64,000 bases of DNA, taken from NCBI RefSeq assembly GCF_021538895.1, contig NZ_JADDRL010000013.1:1-64000 (forward strand). Direction: 5' to 3'. Both the position numbers and the translations under genes were made by a program. Below the pieces are notes generated by a model that saw nothing but the letters and a program-made list of their open reading frames with translations, was not told where the DNA came from and made no database searches. Source of the DNA: Streptomyces olivochromogenes (GTDB lineage Bacteria; Actinomycetota; Actinomycetes; Streptomycetales; Streptomycetaceae). Shown here piece after piece: positions 41,214-64,000 of the stretch. Within the stretch, counting starts at the first letter, position 1. Every line of letters begins with the position of its first letter.

Positions 41214-41263
41214 TCAAAATGCGGGCGCGGTACCGGACGTCCCGGGTGCCAGAGGAGGAGTCC

Positions 41264-42313
41264 ATGACGGCCACAACGTTCGAATTGGGGCTGAACTCGT
41301 TCGGAGAGGTCGCCACCGACGGCGGCCGGACGCTGAGCGATGCCGAGACCGTCCGTCTGTTGATCGAGGAAGCCAAGCTCGCCGAAGCCGTGGGGCTCGA
41401 CACGTTCAGCGTCGGCGAGCACTACCGTGCGGGCCACAACGACAGCGCCACCCCCGTCCTGCTCGCCGCGATCGCCACCGCGACGGAACGCATCCGGCTC
41501 GGCACCTCCGTGACCGTGCTGAGCACCAACGACCCCGTGCGGCTCTACCACGAGTTCTCCACGCTGGACGCCGCCTCGAACGGCCGCGCCCAGCTCGTAC
41601 TGGGGCGGGCATCGGCCACTGAGTCGTTCCCGCTGTTCGGCTACGACCTCGCCGACTACGAGGAACTGTTCGAGGAGAAGCTCGACCTGTTCATGCGCCT
41701 CCAGCGCGAGGAGACGGTGACCTGGTCGGGACGCTTCCGGCCGCCGCTCGTCGAGCGGCGGCTGCGTCCCCGGATGCCGGTCGGCGGCATACCCACCTGG
41801 ATCGGCGTGGGCGGCAGCCCGAACTCCGTGGTCCGCGCCGCCCGTTACGGCCTGCCGCTCATGCTGGCCATCATCGGTGGACGCCCCGAGCGCTTCGCCG
41901 GCCACGTCGAGCTCTACCACCGGACGCTCGAACAGTTCGGGCACGCGAGGCAACCCGTCGCCCAGCACTCGCTGGGGCTCATCGCCGAAAGCGACGAGGA
42001 GGCGATCGAGACCTGGTGGCGGTACTGGCAACCGGTCGTCGCCGCTCTCGCGGAGGAGCGCGGGTTCTACAAGCCGACCCGCGAGCGCTACCTGTCCGAA
42101 GTGGGCAAGGGCGCGCTGTTCGTCGGCTCCCCGGAGACCGTCGCGCGCAAGATCGCGACGGTGGCCCGCGATCTGCACCTCACTCGCTTCGACCTCAAGT
42201 ACGACGTCATGAACCTCCCCCGCGACGCCCGGGCCCGCACGATCGAGTTGCTGGGCCGCGAAGTCGCCCCGCGGGTGAGGGAACTGCTCGCGAAGGAGCC
42301 GGCCCATGTCTGA
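41264..42313 (+). CDS. LLM-class flavin-dependent oxidoreductase (copy 1)
   Basis: 349-aa luciferase-like (beta/alpha)8 oxidoreductase. ATG at 41264 with AGGAGG upstream. Typical core: [55 protein letters not shown] and TWIGVGGSPNSVVRAARYGLPL. Uses FMN or F420 with a second substrate, probably a reductase or monooxygenase. First gene of an operon with a paralogue (8-bp overlap) and an F420/NADP oxidoreductase-like protein. Operator palindromes upstream indicate repression by the MarR protein at 48589. Confidence 0.93.
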   Translation: MTATTFELGLNSFGEVATDGGRTLSDAETVRLLIEEAKLAEAVGLDTFSVGEHYRAGHNDSATPVLLAAIATATERIRLGTSVTVLSTNDPVRLYHEFSTLDAASNGRAQLVLGRASATESFPLFGYDLADYEELFEEKLDLFMRLQREETVTWSGRFRPPLVERRLRPRMPVGGIPTWIGVGGSPNSVVRAARYGLPLMLAIIGGRPERFAGHVELYHRTLEQFGHARQPVAQHSLGLIAESDEEAIETWWRYWQPVVAALAEERGFYKPTRERYLSEVGKGALFVGSPETVARKIATVARDLHLTRFDLKYDVMNLPRDARARTIELLGREVAPRVRELLAKEPAHV

Positions 42314-43337
42314 TCTCGTCTTCGGTCTCGACACGTTCGGCGATGTCCCGCAGGACGACGCGGGCAACCTGGTCTCCGACGCACGGGCCATCCGGCAGGT
42401 GCTCGAAGAGGCCGTTCTCGCGGAGCAGATCGGTGTCGACGTCCTTGCCCTCGGCGAACACCACCGCCCGGAGTTCGCGATCTCCAGTCCGGAGACCGTC
42501 CTCGCCGGCATTGCCACGCGCACCAGCCGCATCCGGCTCTCGTCCGGTGTGACCGTGCTGAGCTCGGACGATCCGGTCCGCGTGTTCCAGCGGTTCTCGA
42601 CGGTGGACGCGCTCTCGAACGGCCGGGCCGAGGTCATCCTCGGGCGCGGCTCCTTCACCGAGTCGTTCCCGCTCTTCGGATACGACCTGGCCGACTACGA
42701 CGTGCTGTTCGAGGAGAAGATCGAGCTCTTCGCCAAGCTGCTGGAGGAGAAGCCCGTCACCTGGAGCGGCACCAAGCGGGCGCCGCTCGACGACGCCGAC
42801 GTCTTCCCCAAGACCGAGTCCGGGCACCTGAGCACCTGGGTCGGTGTGGGCGGCTCACCCCAGTCGGTCATCCGCACCGCGTACTACGGGTTCCCTCTCA
42901 TGATCGCCATCATCGGCGGCAGCCCGGAGCGCTTCGCGCCCTACATCGACCTCTACCAGCGAGCCACCGACAAGTTCGGCACGACCGCTCACCCGGTCGG
43001 AATGCACTCGCCCGGCTTCATCGCCCCCACGGACGAGGAGGCCCGGGAACTGCACTGGCCGCACTACAAGGTCATCCGTGACCGCATCGGCGCGTTGCGG
43101 GGCTGGCCGCCGGTCAGTAAGGACGAGTACGAGGCCGAGATCGAGCACGGCTCGCTCTACATCGGCTCGCCCGCGACGGTCGCCCGCAAGATGGCCCGCG
43201 TCATCAAGGCGCTCGGCGTCGGCCGTTTCGACCTCATCTACACCACGGGGGCACAGTCGATCAGCGCCCGCCTGCGCGCTGTCGAGCTGTACGGCACCAA
43301 GGTGCTCCCGATGGTCCGCGACATCCTCGCAGGCTGA
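42306..43337 (+). CDS. LLM-class flavin-dependent oxidoreductase (copy 2)
   Basis: 343 aa, tandem paralogue of the preceding gene; the two share long blocks such as [13 protein letters not shown] and SPxxVARKxA. The ATG lies inside the 3' end of copy 1 (8-bp overlap), so translation is coupled. Keeps [20 protein letters not shown] and [20 protein letters not shown]. Tandem LLM pairs may form heterodimers as bacterial luciferase does, which is inference. Confidence 0.93.
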
Positions 43338-43356
43338 CGCCATGAACGGAGCAGAA

Positions 43357-44079
43357 ATGGACATCACCGCCGCCGCTACCGTGCGCACGGTCGGCATCTT
43401 GGGTGCGGGGAAGGTCGGCACCGTGCTGGCGCGTCTGGCCCTGGCGGCCGGCAATCGCGTGGTCATCGCCGGATCGGGCGAGCCCGCCAAGATCGCACTC
43501 ACCATCGACGTCCTCACGCCCGGCGCCGTCCCGGTGACCGCAGCGGAGGCCGCGGAGGCCGATGTCGTCGTCCTGGCGCTCCCGCTCGGCAAGTACCGCA
43601 CGATTCCGGCCGAGGCGCTACGGGGCAAGCTCGTCATCGACGCCATGAACTACTGGTGGGAGGTCGACGGCATCCGCGATGACCTGACCGACCCACTCAC
43701 CTCTTCGAGCGAGATCGTGCAGGCGTATCTGTCCGGGGCGCGGGTGGTCAAGGCGTTCAACCACATGGGCTACCACGATCTTGAGGACGGCGCCGAGCCC
43801 GCGGGGGCATCGGGACGCAAGGCGATCGCGATCGCCGGTGACGACCCGGACGACCTCGCCACCGTCGCGCGCCTCGTCAACGCGTTCGGCTTCGACCCCG
43901 TCATGGCAGGTCCCCTCGCCGAAGGAGTACGGCTCGAACCGGGCACCGAGCCTTTCGGCGCCAATGTCAGCGCCGGGGAGCTGCGCGCGATGCTCCTCCG
44001 CTTCCCGGAATCGGCGCGCGGACGGGCCGTGATCAGCGCGAGGGCCGCCGCCTCGGGGCCCAGCGACCAAGCAGCCTGA
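43357..44079 (+). CDS. F420/NADP oxidoreductase-like (NADP_F420) protein
   Basis: 240 aa. ATG at 43357 preferred over 43342 because GGAG precedes it by 7-8 nt. Rossmann [20 protein letters not shown] at the N-terminus, [18 protein letters not shown] and [14 protein letters not shown] as in the F420-dependent NADP reductase family (PF03807). Would shuttle hydride between NADPH and a deazaflavin or flavin for the two LLM enzymes upstream. Third gene of the MarR-controlled operon. Confidence 0.9.
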
Positions 44080-53430: not shown

Positions 53431-55752
53431 TCAGCGCAGTGGGGGCGGCCCGTCCTCGGCCCCCGTTCCCCATCCAGATGGATCGGTGCCCACCGTGAAC
53501 GCGAGGGACTGTATATGCCGCAGCGCATCTGTCGTCAGATACGTTCGGCCGTACGGCGCGTTGTCGACCCGCGCCGACTGGATGTAGCGGCGGGCGTCCG
53601 AGGTGCCGGGTGCCGTCACCGTGAGCGCCCCGCGGGGGTAGTAGCGGCGGTCCAGCCGCAGGTCGACGCGTTCGAAGACGGGTGTGGACAGGCCCCAGGT
53701 GTCGTAGCCGGGCTGCACCGGGAAGATGCCGATCGAGGACAGCACGTTCCAGGCGGACATGGTGCCCAGGTCGTCGTTGCCGGTCATGCCGGTCGGGGCG
53801 TCCGTGAAGAGGGTCAGCGCGGCGTGCACGACATCGGTGGTCTTCCACGGCTGGCCGGTCGAGAGGTAGGTGTACGGGGCGATGAGGTCGGGCTCGTTCT
53901 GCGGGTTGTACTTGTCCGCGTTGTAGTAGTCGTACGGGCCGTTCACCCATACCTCGCGAGCCGTCTTCGCGGGGTCCCGCACCAACTGGTCGTAGGCGAA
54001 GAAGGAGTCCAGCCGGTCGTTGGCCGACTGCTTGCCGCCGATCAAACCGACCATCCCCGGCAGGTCCTGCGGTACGAGCCACTGGTACTGCCAGGCCGTG
54101 CCCTCGTGGAATCCCTCGCTGCGCGCCGGGTCCGCCGGGCCCGTGAAGGCGCCGGAGGCGTCGCGTGCGCGGAAGAAGCCGGTCGAGGTGTCAAAGATCT
54201 TCCGGTAGTTCTGGGCCCGGGCGGCGTAGCGTGACGCGTCGGCGTCGTGGCCGAGGTCGCCGGCCATCTGGGCGAGCATTGCGTCCGACAGCGCATACTC
54301 CAGAGTCGCGGACGCACCGTGGTCGTAGTCGGAGTCACCGGGTTTCACGTGCGGGCGGCCCTTGATGTAGGGCGCGAAGCCTCCCCCGATGTATTCATCG
54401 TTGGCCTCGCGGCCCACGGCCGGCGAGTCGGCGGGCGGCACTCCGTCGGCGTTTGTCTTCAGCGCGCGGTAGGCCCGTTCCTCGTAGCCCTTGAGCAGAC
54501 CCTGCTGGTAGGCGTTGGTGAGGAACGGGGTCACCGGGTCGCCGGTCATGATGTTCGTCTCGACCGTGCCGTAGCCCCACTTCGGCAGCCAGCCGCTCTC
54601 CTCGTCGATCTTGATGACGGAGATCGCCATGTCCCGCGCCTCACGCGGTGCGAGCAGGGACAGGAGCTGGGACTGGGTGCGGTAGGTGTCCCACAGGGAC
54701 CAGTTCTGGTAGTACGTGAAGCCCCGGGCGCGGTGGATCCTCTGGTCCCAGCCGGTGTATCGGCCGTCGGCGTCGCTCCCGATGTTGGGTGCCAGGAACG
54801 ACCGGTACAGGGACGAGTAGAAGGTGCGGCGGAGCGTGTCGCTGCCACCCTGCGCACGTACGGTTTCGAGTCGGTCCTCCCAGGCGAGCCGCGCGGCGTC
54901 GCGAACCTGGTCGAAGGAACGGCCGCCCTCGGTGAGGAGGTTGACGGCCGCGCCGTGCGCGTCGACGTACGAGAGGGCCGTCGTCGCCTCGACGGTCCGG
55001 TCCTTGGTCGTGTCGAAGCGGACGTAGGCGCCGTCCCGGCCGGTGTCCGAGCCGTCGGTGACCGTGGAGCCGTTCCACGTGCCGTGGGCGGTGAACGGAC
55101 GGTCGAAGCGGGTGATGGTGTAGACGGTGTACGGCTTGGTGTCCTGGCAGAAGCCGCTGCCGGTGATCGTGGTGCGCACGGTCCGGTTGTCGAGCACCTC
55201 GACCTTGGTGGAGACGTTGCGATGCAGTGACTGGCCGGCGTTCAGCAGGACGTTGGCCTTGTCGGTGGCCGGGAAGGTGTAGCGCTGCACGCCGGTGCGC
55301 GCGGTGGCCGTCAGTTCCGCGTCGATGCCGGTCTTCAACCCGACCTTGTAGTAGCCGGGGCTTGCCTTTTCCGTGTCGTGACTGAACTCGGCCTGGTACT
55401 TGGCGTAATCCGTCTGCGTGACCTCGCCGGTGGTCGGCAGCACCGGCAGGTCGCCGCCCAGGCCGCAGCCGACACCGGAGAGATGCACGAGGGAGAAGCC
55501 GCGGATGTGGTTCTGGGAGTAGTCGTAACCGGTGTTGTGTCCGGTGTCCGGCGAGAACTGCACCATCCCGAAGGGCACCGCCGCGCCGGGGTAGGTGTTC
55601 CCCTCGTTCTCGGTGCCGATGAACGGGTTGACGAGATCGGTGAGTTCGCCGTCCTCGGCGGCAGCCGCCTGGGACGCCACGGGCGCGATGAGTGCGGCGC
55701 CGAGGACCGCGAATGTCGCGAGCGCACTGCGTATGCGCTGAGTCCATCTCAT
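53431..55752 (-). CDS. secreted GH92 alpha-mannosidase
   Basis: 773 aa. ATG at 55752 with GAGGGAG upstream. Signal peptide 1-33 (ends SQAAAAE). GH92 N-terminal beta domain with VNPFIGTENEGNTYPGAAVP and FGMVQFSPDT, then the (alpha/alpha)6 domain with WDTYRTQSQL, GYGTVETNIMTGDPV, DYDHGASATLEYALSD, the EGTAWQYQW motif and GNDDLGTMSAWNVLSSIGIF carrying catalytic acids. Calcium-dependent exo-alpha-mannosidase acting on mannans or N-glycans outside the cell. A perfect GACAACGTTGTC palindrome precedes it. No transporter or LacI gene nearby. Confidence 0.95.
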   Translation of the reverse strand: MRWTQRIRSALATFAVLGAALIAPVASQAAAAEDGELTDLVNPFIGTENEGNTYPGAAVPFGMVQFSPDTGHNTGYDYSQNHIRGFSLVHLSGVGCGLGGDLPVLPTTGEVTQTDYAKYQAEFSHDTEKASPGYYKVGLKTGIDAELTATARTGVQRYTFPATDKANVLLNAGQSLHRNVSTKVEVLDNRTVRTTITGSGFCQDTKPYTVYTITRFDRPFTAHGTWNGSTVTDGSDTGRDGAYVRFDTTKDRTVEATTALSYVDAHGAAVNLLTEGGRSFDQVRDAARLAWEDRLETVRAQGGSDTLRRTFYSSLYRSFLAPNIGSDADGRYTGWDQRIHRARGFTYYQNWSLWDTYRTQSQLLSLLAPREARDMAISVIKIDEESGWLPKWGYGTVETNIMTGDPVTPFLTNAYQQGLLKGYEERAYRALKTNADGVPPADSPAVGREANDEYIGGGFAPYIKGRPHVKPGDSDYDHGASATLEYALSDAMLAQMAGDLGHDADASRYAARAQNYRKIFDTSTGFFRARDASGAFTGPADPARSEGFHEGTAWQYQWLVPQDLPGMVGLIGGKQSANDRLDSFFAYDQLVRDPAKTAREVWVNGPYDYYNADKYNPQNEPDLIAPYTYLSTGQPWKTTDVVHAALTLFTDAPTGMTGNDDLGTMSAWNVLSSIGIFPVQPGYDTWGLSTPVFERVDLRLDRRYYPRGALTVTAPGTSDARRYIQSARVDNAPYGRTYLTTDALRHIQSLAFTVGTDPSGWGTGAEDGPPPLR

Positions 55753-55773
55753 GAGCGTCAGCTCCCTCTTGTA

Positions 55774-55785
55774 GACAACGTTGTC
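55774..55785. promoter_or_regulatory. LacI-type operator
   Basis: Perfect 12-bp palindrome GACAACGTTGTC, 22 bp upstream of the GH92 start. The central CG and the TTGTC arms are typical of LacI-family sites in front of streptomycete glycosidases. No LacI gene lies in the window, so control would be in trans. Confidence 0.7.
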
Positions 55786-55875
55786 ATGACGGTCGCTCAT
55801 CCTTCAGGTCGCATGAGTGGCCGTCAAGAGGTTCATTGCCAAGGGGAGTTGGCAGAGCTTCGTGGTCGCTGGGGC

Positions 55876-59910: not shown

Positions 59911-60933
59911 TCACCACGTCCGCGACGTGCTCAGGTGTGCGCACAGCCCCGCCAACGCCGTCAGCACGGTGTCGTTGGCATTCCGGTTGCCGACGGTGAG
60001 ACGGAGTCCCTCGCCGGGGTAGTGGCGTGCCTGGACACCGGCGTTGGTGAGTGCTGCGGCGCCCTCGTCGATCGGATCGGGTGCGGCGAGCCAGACGGAA
60101 TTGGCATGGCCGGGGCGTACCTGCCAGCCGAGGGACATGAGTTCACGCCGGAGCCGTTCGCGTTCGGCGACGACGGTGTCCACGCGTAGGCGCAGCTCGC
60201 CTTCGGCCTGTAGGGAGGCCTTTACCGCCGCCGTTGCCACCGCGTTGATCCCGAAGGGCAACTGTTGCCGACGGATCCGCTCCACCAGGTCAGGAGCGCC
60301 GAGTCCGAAACCGACCCGCAGGGCGGCGAGGCCGTAGGCCTTCGAGAAGGTGCGCAGGACCAGCAGGTTGGGATGTGCGTCCAGGAGCGCGGACGTATCC
60401 GGCAGGCGCGTGTCGCGGGCGAACTCCACGTACGCCTCGTCGAGGAGCACGGTGACGCGTCGGGGGACCTGACGCAGGAACACCGACAGTGCGTCGGCGG
60501 TGACGAGGCTCCCGGTGGGGTTGTGCGGATTGCACAGCACCACGACGCGGGTGCGCTGGTCGATTGCAGCGAGCAGGGCGTCCAGATCCTGGTGTCCGTC
60601 CGGCGACAGCGGGATGGGGACAGGTTGAGCGCCGACCATGGCGGCCAGCAGGGGATAGGCGTCGAAGGTGCGCCAGGCGTAGGCCACCGTGTCGCCGGGC
60701 TGGACCACCGCCCGGAGCAACTGCAGGGCCACGCCGACCGATCCGCTGCCGACCGCGACGCGGTCGGAGGTCACCCGGCACCACGTGGCGATCTGCTCGG
60801 TGAGGTCGTCGGGGTGGAACTGCGGGTACCGGTGGGCCTGTGCGACGGCCCGTTGCATCGCCTCGCGTACCGAGGGCAGTGGGGGATACGGGCTCTCGTT
60901 CAGGGCAAGTCGGTGCAGCACCGGGATGTCCAT
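59911..60933 (-). CDS. HisC-like PLP aminotransferase
   Basis: 340-aa fold-type I enzyme of the histidinol-phosphate/aromatic aminotransferase branch. N-terminal LNESPYPPLPSVREAM, NPHNPTG (135-141), LDEAYVEF (163-170), PLP lysine Lys198 in RTFSKAYGLAALRVGF, and C-terminal RLTVGNRNAND. ATG at 60933, 3 bp after the KAS III-like stop. Last gene of the visible operon. A housekeeping HisC would sit in the his operon, so this copy probably transaminates an aromatic or branched amino acid for the pathway. Confidence 0.92.
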   Translation of the reverse strand: MDIPVLHRLALNESPYPPLPSVREAMQRAVAQAHRYPQFHPDDLTEQIATWCRVTSDRVAVGSGSVGVALQLLRAVVQPGDTVAYAWRTFDAYPLLAAMVGAQPVPIPLSPDGHQDLDALLAAIDQRTRVVVLCNPHNPTGSLVTADALSVFLRQVPRRVTVLLDEAYVEFARDTRLPDTSALLDAHPNLLVLRTFSKAYGLAALRVGFGLGAPDLVERIRRQQLPFGINAVATAAVKASLQAEGELRLRVDTVVAERERLRRELMSLGWQVRPGHANSVWLAAPDPIDEGAAALTNAGVQARHYPGEGLRLTVGNRNANDTVLTALAGLCAHLSTSRTW

Positions 60934-60936
60934 GCC

Positions 60937-61956
60937 TCAGTCCCGTCCGCCGTGCCAGCGAACGGCCACGGCACCGGCGAAGTCGCCTGCGTGGGCGAAG
61001 CCCCCGAGCACCATGAGGTCGCCGTCCTCCACCTGCCGGGAGCCGATCGCGCGGTCCAAGGTGATCGGGATGGCCGCGCCGAACAGATTCCCGTACTCGT
61101 CGAAGGTGTTCAGGTGCCGTTCGGCCGGCAGTTGCAGCGCCTCGCGCCAGTTCCGCAGGAACGTACGGTTGGGCTGGTTGGTGATGAGGACGTCGATGTC
61201 GGTGCTCGCCACGCCGAGCCGCCGGCACAGGTCCATGACCACCTCGGGGACGAGGCGGTTCCCGCGTGCCAGGACCTTGGCCACGCTTGCGTCGGTGAAC
61301 CCGATCCGCAGCTGGGACTCTCCCGGCTCCCAGTACTTGCGACCGTCCTCGACCGCCACGGTCATGTCGCCGGCGTACTCGCCGATGTGCCGGGTCTCCA
61401 CGTCGAGGACCGGTGACTGGGCCGACGTCGTCACGAACGCCACACCGCACCCGTCGCCCGGGATCGCCGCTTGGGCGAGTTTGCGCACCTCGGACTGGGT
61501 GAAGCACTGCCCCGCGGCGCTTTGCGCGTTGCAGATCAGCGCGGTCTTCGCGTCAGTGGTGGTGAGGATCTGCCGGGCCATCTTCACCATGTACACAAAG
61601 GACGCGCAGCCCGCGTTGGCCACGTCGACGAGCCACTCCGGGTTCAGTCCCAGCCGACGCGCCACCTCGGTTCCGGCGCCCACGAACGGCAGGTCCGGCA
61701 ACTGGCTGTGCACCAACAGCACGTCGACGGCTCGGATCTCCGCCCCGCCGTGCCGTTCGATCAGGGGTTGTACGGCCCGTTCGATCATGTCCGCGTTCGT
61801 CTCGTCCGCGGCCACATGGTGCCGTGACGGTGGGACCTTGAACATGGGGTGGTTGCGGAGCTTGTCCTCGGCTCCGGGGTACTCGGTGTAGAACTCCGCG
61901 GGGACCGGCTTGCCGGGAAGATAGCTCGCCACGTCGGTGAGGCTGACCGTCGTCAC
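60937..61956 (-). CDS. KAS III-like acyl transferase/condensing enzyme, active-site His replaced
   Basis: 339 aa, FabH-like thiolase fold. Catalytic-type Cys117 in DVANAGCASF and Asn290 in EYGNLFGAAIP are present. In the segment equivalent to FabH PHQAN the sequence is ITNQPNRT, so Asn260 stands where His is expected. Start GTG at 61956 overlaps the SRPBCC stop by 4 nt (GTGA). Such altered KAS III proteins often catalyse acyl transfer to O, N or C nucleophiles rather than decarboxylative condensation, which is inference. Lies between SRPBCC and aminotransferase genes. Confidence 0.92.
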   Translation of the reverse strand: MTTVSLTDVASYLPGKPVPAEFYTEYPGAEDKLRNHPMFKVPPSRHHVAADETNADMIERAVQPLIERHGGAEIRAVDVLLVHSQLPDLPFVGAGTEVARRLGLNPEWLVDVANAGCASFVYMVKMARQILTTTDAKTALICNAQSAAGQCFTQSEVRKLAQAAIPGDGCGVAFVTTSAQSPVLDVETRHIGEYAGDMTVAVEDGRKYWEPGESQLRIGFTDASVAKVLARGNRLVPEVVMDLCRRLGVASTDIDVLITNQPNRTFLRNWREALQLPAERHLNTFDEYGNLFGAAIPITLDRAIGSRQVEDGDLMVLGGFAHAGDFAGAVAVRWHGGRD

Positions 61957-62606
61957 CGCGCCACCGCCCTGGCCGGAGCCACGCTGACCGGCAGGCCGCC
62001 CCGGTGCCGATGTTCCAGGATCGCCTTGAGATTGTTCATCTCCAAGGTGTGCCCCGCGTAGAAGAGGTCCCAGTAGTCGCCCACCCAGGGCCGGTCCGGG
62101 CGCGGCGCCTTCTCGGGATGCGGGTTGGTGTCGTAGTAGGGGTGCCGGCAGTTGGTCCAGGTGATCACCGAACCCGGCTTGTCGAGCACCAGGCGGGCCG
62201 GGACGACACGCATCAGGTAGATCATCCACAGCTTCTCGCCCTGGTCCCACGAGCAGTGGTAGTCCACGGTCATGGCCTCGGGGTTGGCGACCACCTCGCA
62301 GTAGATCCTGGTGTCGTCCTCCAGTCGGTCGTGACCGACCCACAGCCCCGGGGTGCCGCTGGGCGCGAAGTCCCGCAGGCTGCAGGTCCATTCCTCCAGA
62401 TGGTGCCCCTGGCGCAGGTAGTCGTAGGCCTGCTCAGGGGGGCAGTCGACGTACTCGTGGATGGTGCAGTACTGCCCGTAGACCTGGTGGTGGGGGTAGA
62501 CCGCGTGGGTGAGCTCCATGCAGTGGGCGGTCAGTTCCTGCTTGTCGGCGTTCTCGATCCGGATCAGACCGGGGATGTCAGCCAACGTGGACGACTCCTC
62601 GCTCAT
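61953..62606 (-). CDS. SRPBCC-fold protein
   Basis: 217-aa START/polyketide-cyclase-like domain: YGQYCTIHEYVDCPPEQAYD, EEWTCSLRDF, YHCSWDQGEKLWMIYLMRVV and TWTNCRHPYYDTNP, with an amphipathic C-terminal helix (TLEMNNLKAILEHR). Larger than simple SRPBCC proteins. Overlaps the ThDP-enzyme stop by 29 bp and the KAS III-like start by 4 bp, so the operon is translationally coupled. Probably binds or cyclises the intermediate made by its neighbours. Confidence 0.85.
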   Translation of the reverse strand: MSEESSTLADIPGLIRIENADKQELTAHCMELTHAVYPHHQVYGQYCTIHEYVDCPPEQAYDYLRQGHHLEEWTCSLRDFAPSGTPGLWVGHDRLEDDTRIYCEVVANPEAMTVDYHCSWDQGEKLWMIYLMRVVPARLVLDKPGSVITWTNCRHPYYDTNPHPEKAPRPDRPWVGDYWDLFYAGHTLEMNNLKAILEHRHRGGLPVSVAPARAVAR

Positions 62607-64000
62607 CTGAACCCTCCTTGCTCTTGTTGGCTTCGGTGAAGGACTGGAAGGGAAGGAACGGGGGGATCTCCCGCGGGTCGCAGGGCACCACGACGAACGC
62701 CGGGCCGCCGCCCGCGTTGCCGCGCAGCAGGGCCGTGCGCAGCTGTGCCGCGTCGTCGGCTCCCGTGGCCTCCAACGACGGGAAGGCGGCGGCCACTCCG
62801 GCGGCTATGTCGGTCGGGGCGAACAGATCGTCGCTGCGGACGCCGCCCTGGAGGAACTCCTCGCGCAGCGCGCACATGGCGTGGGCGTTGTTGTTGAAGA
62901 TCACGAACGTCACGGGTGCGTCGTACTCCACGGCGGTGTGCACCTCCATCCCGTGCATGAAGAAGGCCCCGTCGCCGGCGATGACGTAGGTGCGTCGGCC
63001 GGTGGCGAGCGCGGCACCGATGCCGGCACCGAAGGTGTAGCCCATGCCGCCCATGCCGAGCGCCACCACGAAGCGGCCGTGGCGCGGTGCCGGCAGGAGA
63101 TGGATCGCGCTGGCGCCCGTGTTGCCGGCGTCCACGAAGACGTGGGCGTCCTGGGGGAGTGCCGCCTCCACCGCGGCGACCGCCTGGTCATGGGGGACGG
63201 TTCGTTCTCGGTCCCCAAAGAGCGGACCCGGTGTGGGCGCGGGAAGGGGGCCGGCGTGCGGCGGGCAAGGACGTGGGTGCGGTGGCAGCCGTACGGTCAC
63301 CGCGCGCAGCGCGTCGCGCAGATTGCCACCCAGTGCGATGCCTGCCACGAACGGTGGTTCGGGGCCGAGACAGACGACGTCGGTGGCGGCCAGGGCCTGG
63401 TCGAGGCCACCGCGTGCCAGGAGCGGCAGTCGGGTACCGACCAGCAGGCACAGGTCGGCCCGCCGCAGACAGTCTTCGACGTTGGCGTGGCCCATCACCC
63501 CGGCTACGCCCGCGAATCGGGGATCACGGTTGTCGAAGACGTCCTTGGCGTCCGGGGTGACCGCCACCCATGCCCCGAGGCACTGGGCCAGTTCGGCCAG
63601 TTCCCCGCGCGCGTCGTCGGCGGCAACACCCTCACCGGCGATGACGAGGACGCGACCGGCCTCGTGAAGGGCGTCCGACACGGCGCCGACGGCAGCTGTG
63701 TCGAGCCGCGCCGCGGATGCCGTCGCGGGGCCGCCCGGTGATGTCGGGGCCATGTCGTGGGCGGGTACCTGGATGCGCGCCTGCTGCACGTCCTTGGGCA
63801 GCAACAGCACGGCCGGCCCGCGCGGTTCGGCCTGCGCCGCCGCGACTGCCAGGGGCAGCAACTCCGTGAGCGAGGACGCGTCATCGACCCGGGCGCAGAA
63901 CCGGGAGACGGGCGCGAAGACCTCCCGTGCGTCGAAGGAGCCCGCCTTGCCGCTGGAGTCCTGGAACGCCCCGTGCCCTTCCTGGCCGGTCGGAGGCTGA
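62578..64000 (-). CDS. thiamine-diphosphate-dependent enzyme (5' end outside window)
   Basis: About 474 residues are visible of an acetolactate-synthase/benzoylformate-decarboxylase type enzyme; the PYR domain N-terminus is beyond the right edge. Central DHS domain includes RVLVIAGEGVAADDARGELA. The C-terminal PP domain has FVDAGNTGASAIHLL and the ThDP motif GDGAFFMHGMEVHTAVEYDA through FVIFNNNAHAM (GDG ... NN), so cofactor binding is intact. Catalyses decarboxylation and/or carboligation of 2-oxo acids. First visible gene of a coupled operon with SRPBCC, KAS III-like and aminotransferase genes. Confidence 0.92.
   Translation of the reverse strand, partial: QPPTGQEGHGAFQDSSGKAGSFDAREVFAPVSRFCARVDDASSLTELLPLAVAAAQAEPRGPAVLLLPKDVQQARIQVPAHDMAPTSPGGPATASAARLDTAAVGAVSDALHEAGRVLVIAGEGVAADDARGELAELAQCLGAWVAVTPDAKDVFDNRDPRFAGVAGVMGHANVEDCLRRADLCLLVGTRLPLLARGGLDQALAATDVVCLGPEPPFVAGIALGGNLRDALRAVTVRLPPHPRPCPPHAGPLPAPTPGPLFGDRERTVPHDQAVAAVEAALPQDAHVFVDAGNTGASAIHLLPAPRHGRFVVALGMGGMGYTFGAGIGAALATGRRTYVIAGDGAFFMHGMEVHTAVEYDAPVTFVIFNNNAHAMCALREEFLQGGVRSDDLFAPTDIAAGVAAAFPSLEATGADDAAQLRTALLRGNAGGGPAFVVVPCDPREIPPFLPFQSFTEANKSKEGSDERGVVHVG

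Follow-up and report, generated by a model that had tools for sequence, protein, structure and literature searches.

Introduction

The closest described systems to the locus reported here are the gene clusters of bacterial carbazole biosynthesis. According to a review (PMC7466098), the carquinostatin route starts with the aminotransferase CqsB7, which provides indole-3-pyruvate, continues with the thiamine diphosphate (ThDP)-dependent enzyme CqsB3, which joins pyruvate to it, and leads to the carbazole synthase CqsB2, which closes ring A. Bacterial carbazoles are a known class of antioxidants. The review cites the antioxidative lipocarbazoles from Tsukamurella pseudospumae, and it gives the inference that the enzymes of carbazomycin and carbazoquinocin formation use acyl groups that are not β-hydroxylated. 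For chlocarbazomycin, genome mining has led to the assignment of a cluster, chlCz (PMC10100901, Table 5). Here we analyze a four-gene operon at the right edge of a 64,000-nucleotide stretch of Streptomyces olivochromogenes DNA (the window). An earlier note, made from the letters of the window, did not recognize this combination of genes as a known cluster; it can be recognized, however, as the core set by which bacteria build tricyclic carbazoles (CqsB7-B3-B1-B2 or NzsD-H-J-I). Since the four roles match CqsB7, CqsB3, CqsB1, and CqsB2, the set would cover the way from tryptophan to a tricyclic carbazole. With a probability of about three in four, we read the operon as a minimal, self-contained carbazole cassette, whose product is likely a 1-alkyl-2-methylcarbazole-3,4-quinone or catechol. 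According to the note, a gene order that is already characterized would refute its reading: This applies to the enzyme set, whereas we found no report of the stand-alone cassette in the open-access literature.

Results

The operon and its homologues

The window covers bases 1–64000 of a contig (C35) of 120,896 bases in a genome of 10.25 Mb. The operon and the gene that adjoins it consist of the following features:

62578..64000, reverse strand: ThDP-dependent carboligase (putatively CqsB3/NzsH-type), truncated at the edge of the window; complete gene 62578–64332, 584 aa; from Pfam TPP_enzyme_M/C and the full open reading frame (ORF)
61953..62606, reverse strand: SRPBCC/Bet v1-like carbazole synthase homologue (CqsB2/NzsI-type), 217 aa; from the phmmer match to 6ipv, the AlphaFold2 model, and the catalytic residues
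60937..61956, reverse strand: ketoacyl synthase III (KAS III)-like condensing enzyme (predicted CqsB1/NzsJ role), GTG start, 339 aa; from Pfam ACP_syn_III/III_C, the FabH alignment, and the model
59911..60933, reverse strand: class I/II aminotransferase (putatively CqsB7/NzsD-type), 340 aa; from Pfam Aminotran_1_2, NCBIfam PRK03321, and the tree
ends at 64329, reverse strand: GlxA-type regulator; from Pfam DJ-1_PfpI and AraC helix-turn-helix

The four tightly coupled reverse-strand ORFs of the earlier note were found again at the same positions: The ThDP gene (stop at 62578) overlaps the SRPBCC gene by 29 bp, the SRPBCC gene overlaps the KAS gene (start 61956, stop 60937) by 4 bp, and 3 bp separate the KAS gene from the aminotransferase gene. 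The domain classes also agree with Pfam for the ThDP, KAS, and aminotransferase proteins, and with a match to CqsB2 for the SRPBCC protein. Beyond 64 kb, where the note had proposed to look, the ThDP gene is completed to 64332 and a fifth gene appears. This GlxA-type regulator overlaps the ThDP gene start by 4 bp, and we therefore regard regulator-ThDP-SRPBCC-KAS-aminotransferase as the unit. Genes were called with a home-made codon-score method whose starts are approximate; it placed an opposite-strand gene over the regulator in locus L005 and overlooked the SRPBCC genes of L060, L106, and L108.

Of 392 genomes in the window's genus, 37 have a homologue, and by identity and neighbors these homologues split into three groups. 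Group A (22 genomes, among them that of the window; 71–100% identity) carries the stand-alone cassette. Group B comprises 11 genomes (52–60% identity); 6 of its 11 loci carry an acyl carrier protein (ACP) of the 83-aa type, a flavin adenine dinucleotide (FAD) oxidoreductase, two genes of the short-chain dehydrogenase/reductase (SDR) type, a CMAS-type methyltransferase, and a desaturase (Pfam on one locus), a gene content which, together with the protein lengths, fits the published chlCz table. Of the 5 loci in group C (42–44% identity), three resemble cqs/nzs in having a prenyltransferase, an isopentenyl diphosphate (IPP) isomerase, a P450, and a gene for an ACP-like protein of 80 aa. The first three were confirmed by profile search on one group C locus, and the ACP-like protein, which matched no Pfam or NCBIfam model, was named by size, place, and sequence.

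The SRPBCC protein as carbazole synthase homologue

The SRPBCC protein matched no Pfam or NCBIfam model at E 0.001. A phmmer search against solved structures matched one protein, CqsB2 of Streptomyces exfoliatus (6ipv/6ipw, E 1.6e-49, 191 residues). With an AlphaFold2 model of the protein (mean predicted local distance difference test, pLDDT, 86), Foldseek ranked 6ipv first (3.1e-19), as did VIA-align (Z 21.3 over 167 residues at 2.5 Å; next best Z 13.6); such structure searches list matches only, and absence from them is uninformative. Four of the five catalytic residues of CqsB2 (Glu105, Tyr144, Tyr172, His206, and Glu209) are identical in the SRPBCC protein, and Glu105 is replaced by Asp93. 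Equivalents of Tyr144, His206, and Glu209 occur in 116/116 aligned SRPBCC sequences and that of Tyr172 in 115/116, while at the Glu105 position Glu is confined to the five sequences of the cqs/nzs group, the other 111 having Asp. These and the following residue counts are per sequence and not per species, exclude rows of ≤150 aa, and count several genomes twice that are present in two collections (e.g., L037 and L075). Sequence and modeled structure both mark the protein as homologous to the CqsB2-type carbazole synthases. One genome (G194) has a second SRPBCC gene copy in three pieces (L074, G194:C12:83556-84204) besides an intact cassette on C11.

The ThDP enzyme and the aminotransferase

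The solved chains closest to the ThDP protein are BbmA (8xod/8x3x, 7.8e-62) and CsmA (8x3z, 5.3e-47). According to PMC12395478, CsmA is a homologue of CybE, CybE-type products are α-hydroxy-β-keto acids, and the other new homologue is printed as 'BpmA'. Each of the 117 ThDP rows over 500 aa retains the cofactor Glu and the GDG-motif Asp, and the ThDP protein is 37–38% identical to its group C counterparts. We predict that it acts as an α-hydroxy-β-keto acid synthase on indole-3-pyruvate and pyruvate. One Asn of the GDG...NN motif is changed to Asp in 9/29 ThDP sequences labeled M and in 1/5 labeled B2.

CybE-type enzymes (CsmA, and BbmA by sequence rank) are the nearest solved structures to the ThDP protein. 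The furanolide route to which they belong was considered for this reason, but it employs coumaroyl-CoA and the furanolide synthase CybF (PMC12395478), whereas the KAS and SRPBCC proteins of the operon are carbazole-route partners. Because the other operon genes belong to the carbazole route, we set the furanolide pathway aside; a search for CybF was not made.

The aminotransferase lies below the cut-off of the NCBIfam model TIGR01141 (hisC). In a tree built from a small sample it forms a clade with the aminotransferases of three cqs/nzs-type clusters and ten Mycobacteriales loci (100/98), within which the split is weaker (89/84). The HisC-like paralogue of the same genome (46% identical) falls outside this clade. 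Two carbazomycin-like loci and two further loci of group C have aminotransferases nearby that are found elsewhere in the tree. A conversion of l-tryptophan into indole-3-pyruvate, as by CqsB7/NzsD, is the predicted reaction. The earlier note had suggested that the aminotransferase supplies an aryl or alkyl 2-oxo acid; it is probably an aromatic aminotransferase that feeds the carboligase.

A branch-wide exchange in the KAS III-like protein

The model of the KAS protein (pLDDT 91) has the FabH fold (Z about 39), and the place of its gene among the neighbors suits the CqsB1/NzsJ role. Cys117 and Asn290 are kept, and the catalytic His is replaced by Asn260: Alignments show the motif TNQPN instead of PHQAN in FabH and THQPN in cqs/nzs-type clusters, so that the Cys-His-Asn triad of the cqs/nzs subtype is altered in this protein. 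The same Asn is found in 113/113 KAS sequences outside group C. The catalytic His occurs in group C only, in five CqsB1-type and two priming KAS sequences. This exchange across the wider branch is, at the level of the aligned sequences, new here. It tracks the branch together with the Glu-to-Asp exchange in the SRPBCC protein, and a single divergence could explain both.

Relation to known carbazole clusters

In a concatenated tree of 40 rows with group C as outgroup, group A (10 rows) forms one clade (100/100), and A, carbazomycin-like, B2, and Mycobacteriales rows are united in one clade (100/99) with cqs/nzs outside. The order among these four sets is left undefined by the tree, and long branches, Tsukamurella included, were flagged. 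Locus L062, one of the 8 labeled B1, is without the chlCz-like gene content, and the tree places it among Nocardia and Rhodococcus.

Compared with cqs/nzs, the operon has the same four predicted enzyme roles (CqsB7/NzsD, CqsB3/NzsH, CqsB1/NzsJ, CqsB2/NzsI) and a largely kept catalytic site; the Streptomyces clusters differ in their gene order, the His of their KAS, the Glu105 of their SRPBCC protein, and extra genes. Prenyltransferase, IPP isomerase, P450, ACP, and priming KAS are not among the neighbor families common to group A loci. A search of the operon's own genome for a squalene/phytoene-synthase-like prenyltransferase gave a best match of only E 5.9e-8 (28%), and a search for an ACP, which had no positive control, was empty. 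The carbazomycin/chlCz-like loci share the ThDP/SRPBCC/KAS clade as well as the His-to-Asn and Glu-to-Asp exchanges with group A, but also encode an ACP, an FAD oxidoreductase, SDRs, and further proteins; two of these loci have aminotransferases of another branch nearby. ACPs, FAD oxidases, and SDRs of the chlCz type were also looked for around the cassette: no non-core neighbor family occurs in more than 3/22 or 6/44 group A loci.

An alkyl-methyl-carbazole skeleton, as in carbazoquinocins, carazostatin, and lipocarbazoles, would be expected from this gene set without tailoring. We found no gene cluster for any of these compounds in the open-access literature, and no carbazole producer named in the cited papers is among the 44 named group A loci described below.

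Three B2 loci of Streptomyces (L058, L059, and L061) carry ThDP-SRPBCC-KAS near an MqnE-type gene and a class III aminotransferase. The MqnE-type protein matches aminofutalosine synthase (above cut-off on L058; same family in L059 and L061), and two more genes nearby are putatively ferredoxin-like and MqnA-like.

A portable cassette

A scan of named genomes yielded 472 relatives, of which the best 80 were kept (44 of group A and 36 outside); as these are the closest to the query, the shares derived from them are biased. The group A loci stem from Streptomyces, Kitasatospora, Streptacidiphilus, Wenjunlia, Streptantibioticus, Planosporangium, and a record titled Saccharothrix, with Streptomyces malaysiense as nearest named relative (SRPBCC 99% identical). 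The order regulator-ThDP-SRPBCC-KAS is found in 42 of the 44 loci, and in the other two the SRPBCC gene was missed by the gene caller and is present by tblastn. The 29-bp overlap recurs in 35/42 and the 4-bp overlap in 40/42 of them, a conservation far beyond chance. The earlier view that these genes act together as one operon is correct. An aminotransferase follows the KAS gene directly in 19/44.

The flanks vary: The gene adjoining the cassette belongs to no shared family in 29/42 loci upstream and 27/42 downstream, no neighbor family occurs there in more than two, and the commonest non-core family anywhere in these loci reaches 6/44. Because the same order stands between differing flanks, the cassette is portable, which is new here. 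Relatives were found in 6 of 72,556 plasmid records; as the best of them is 60.2% identical, no group A cassette is among these records.

Mycobacteria and other lineages

The 36 named loci outside group A comprise 20 from Mycobacterium/Mycolicibacterium, seven from Nocardia, two from Rhodococcus, two from Streptomyces (B2), and five metagenome-assembled genomes (MAGs) of other phyla or classes. ThDP-SRPBCC-KAS is found in 33/36, with an aminotransferase next in 28/36. The exact order adk-map-sigma-anti-sigma-ThDP-SRPBCC-KAS-aminotransferase-MarR occurs in 14/36, all among the 20 mycobacterial loci (L122–L154 range); the neighbor families were identified by Pfam on one member each, from L122 and L123, and adk is named by position. 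SecY lies upstream, and downstream are genes for three enzymes (3-hydroxyisobutyrate dehydrogenase, acyl-CoA dehydrogenase, and aldehyde dehydrogenase). We take these surroundings to be the sigL-rslA locus, as in Mycobacterium tuberculosis. The anti-sigma proteins of this family share the motif HxxxCxxC (22/22). In M. tuberculosis RslA, oxidation of the CXXC to a disulfide weakens the binding of SigL about 8-fold (PMC2877774). The sigL-rslA promoter is a binding site of the MarR regulator Rv0737, which lies near sigL (PMC13002591).

A sigma/anti-sigma pair stands next to or near the cassette in both Rhodococcus loci as well; directly upstream of the cassette it was not seen in the seven Nocardia loci. 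In the genus of G428, which we take to be Mycobacterium, a homologue of the carbazole synthase, as distinct from the whole cassette, was counted in 201 out of 297 genomes, and the other 96 gave no match. A draw of 396 Actinomycetota contained 14 genomes with a homologue: two from the window's genus, one of them the window's own, and 12 from the family to which G428 belongs. We found no report of carbazole genes in mycobacteria in the open-access literature.

Further observations concern single loci. In the presumed genus Mycobacterium, the 3.3-Mb genomes G842 and G882 gave weak matches only (E 1e-24 and 4e-26) and could hold decayed copies. MAGs of Planctomycetota and Myxococcota/Deltaproteobacteria (L120, L128, L147) show the order SRPBCC-KAS-ThDP. 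On a Tsukamurella tyrosinosolvens plasmid (L155) the order is flavodoxin-ThDP-SRPBCC-KAS, with a TrpB-like gene second after KAS and a styrene/indole monooxygenase gene close to the cassette; the same genus is the source of the lipocarbazoles.

Neighborhood of the operon

No tailoring genes were seen next to the operon in ORF lists to contig position 78 kb, with Pfam run on ten neighbors (most others without Pfam) and 78–97 kb covered by ORF only. A major facilitator superfamily (MFS) transporter gene (C35 69183–70715, L005 10184–11716), about 5 kb from the operon, shares a loose family with the MFS gene of 6/11 group B loci; MFS genes being common, this match is possibly due to chance. Farther away, the window holds two overlapping luciferase-like monooxygenase genes followed by an F420-type oxidoreductase gene (41219–43337 and 43261–44079), and a large GH92 family glycosidase (53431–55800), secreted by the look of its start.

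Discussion

From the enzyme roles we propose the following course of catalysis. The aminotransferase would convert tryptophan into indole-3-pyruvate, which the ThDP enzyme would join with pyruvate to an acyloin-type intermediate. The KAS III-like enzyme would carry a non-β-hydroxylated acyl group borrowed from fatty-acid metabolism and, in its acyl-loaded form, condense with the ThDP product under loss of CO2. The SRPBCC protein would then fold the unstable condensation product and close ring A, thereby producing a 1-alkyl-2-methylcarbazole-3,4-quinone or catechol of the carbazoquinocin type, presumably a radical scavenger, and expression may be turned on via the adjoining GlxA-type regulator. 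We read group A as such an untailored, acyl-borrowing pathway because of its placement in the branch and because of the review's inference on non-β-hydroxylated acyl groups. The earlier note had already expected a small-molecule pathway with a 2-oxo-acid carboligase, a condensing enzyme, and a cyclase, which agrees with the carbazole-route homologues found here; the acyloin that it suggested as end product is predicted to be an intermediate instead.

Several points weigh against this assignment. Sequence distance to the cqs/nzs proteins is considerable (about 40% identity for SRPBCC, 25–28% for KAS), and because Asn replaces the catalytic His throughout the branch, the chemistry of the KAS protein may differ from that of CqsB1. 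There is no aminotransferase directly after KAS in 25/44 named group A loci, S. malaysiense (L075) among them, and the aminotransferase of the operon lies above the cut-off of PRK03321, a subfamily model of histidinol-phosphate transaminase. The carbazomycin-like loci were recognized by gene content and by protein lengths against the published chlCz table and not against chlCz proteins. Moreover, carbazoquinocin F has been reported, by formula only, from the chlCz strain (PMC10100901), so that such compounds need not stem from a cassette like that of the operon. Carbazoquinocins in a Micromonospora are software annotations in PMC10817652, which lists m/z 324.196 and 338.211 for carbazoquinocins E and F; they have no tie to such a cassette.

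The exchanged His of the KAS protein would also suit an unlikely alternative in which only the early steps are shared: The KAS protein would transfer its acyl group without decarboxylative condensation, the SRPBCC protein would only guide, and the product would be an open indole acyloin, ester, or ketone. Two NzsH homologues are reported to build the indole acyloin core of the sattazolins in Clostridium, and the CqsB1 product spontaneously becomes indole-containing esters (PMC7466098). However, the same exchange is present in loci that resemble chlCz, the cluster which genome mining links to chlocarbazomycin producers, and the SRPBCC protein retains its ring-closing residues. Marginally less probable still is the same cascade on phenylpyruvate or 4-hydroxyphenylpyruvate, which would lead to a non-indole benzannulated quinone or catechol. 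The HisC-like aminotransferase family is broad enough for this, and CybE uses 4-hydroxyphenylpyruvate, an indole substrate reaching about 1.2% conversion with CybE/CybF (PMC12395478). Yet three cqs/nzs-type clusters have aminotransferases that group with that of the operon, the Tsukamurella relative has a TrpB-like gene nearby, and, judged by the mechanism, the described ring closure should need a nucleophilic indole ring.

That acetolactate synthase, FabH, and HisC copies of primary metabolism stand together by accident is very improbable. Their general family names would allow it, the TIGR00118, fabH, and hisC models match, and PRK03321 does so above its cut-off; we nonetheless reject it on the scores for TIGR00118, TIGR00747, and TIGR01141, which are all below the curated cut-offs, and on a gene order that is conserved in 42/44 named relatives despite differing flanks. 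In addition, the KAS protein has only two weak relatives in its own genome (27% and 24%, at E 1e-5), and that genome holds another, separate HisC-like gene.

Returning to the carbazole cassette, we tentatively advance a broader proposal, as a possibility rather than an expectation: The four genes may encode a pathway, widespread among actinobacteria, whose alkyl-carbazole quinones or catechols serve as redox-responsive membrane antioxidants. In mycobacteria, the pathway may have been the original target of the redox-sensing SigL-RslA-like pair and have been lost where only the sigma pair remains, and the Streptomyces version would be the same pathway under a GlxA-type regulator.

Conclusion

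The kind of pathway described here is already known; its minimal, widespread stand-alone version and its mycobacterial location are new. The operon offers a four-gene test bed for what is possibly the smallest carbazole pathway, and candidate genes for the alkyl-carbazoles (carbazoquinocins, carazostatin, and lipocarbazoles), for which no cluster was found in the open-access literature. Homologues of the carbazole synthase are common in Mycobacterium, where they often adjoin a sigma/anti-sigma pair with a redox-sensitive counterpart in M. tuberculosis. This location provides a testable lead, both in the search for a new natural antioxidant and for the original purpose of SigL: If the broader proposal is true, mycobacteria would make an undescribed class of indole-derived lipids.

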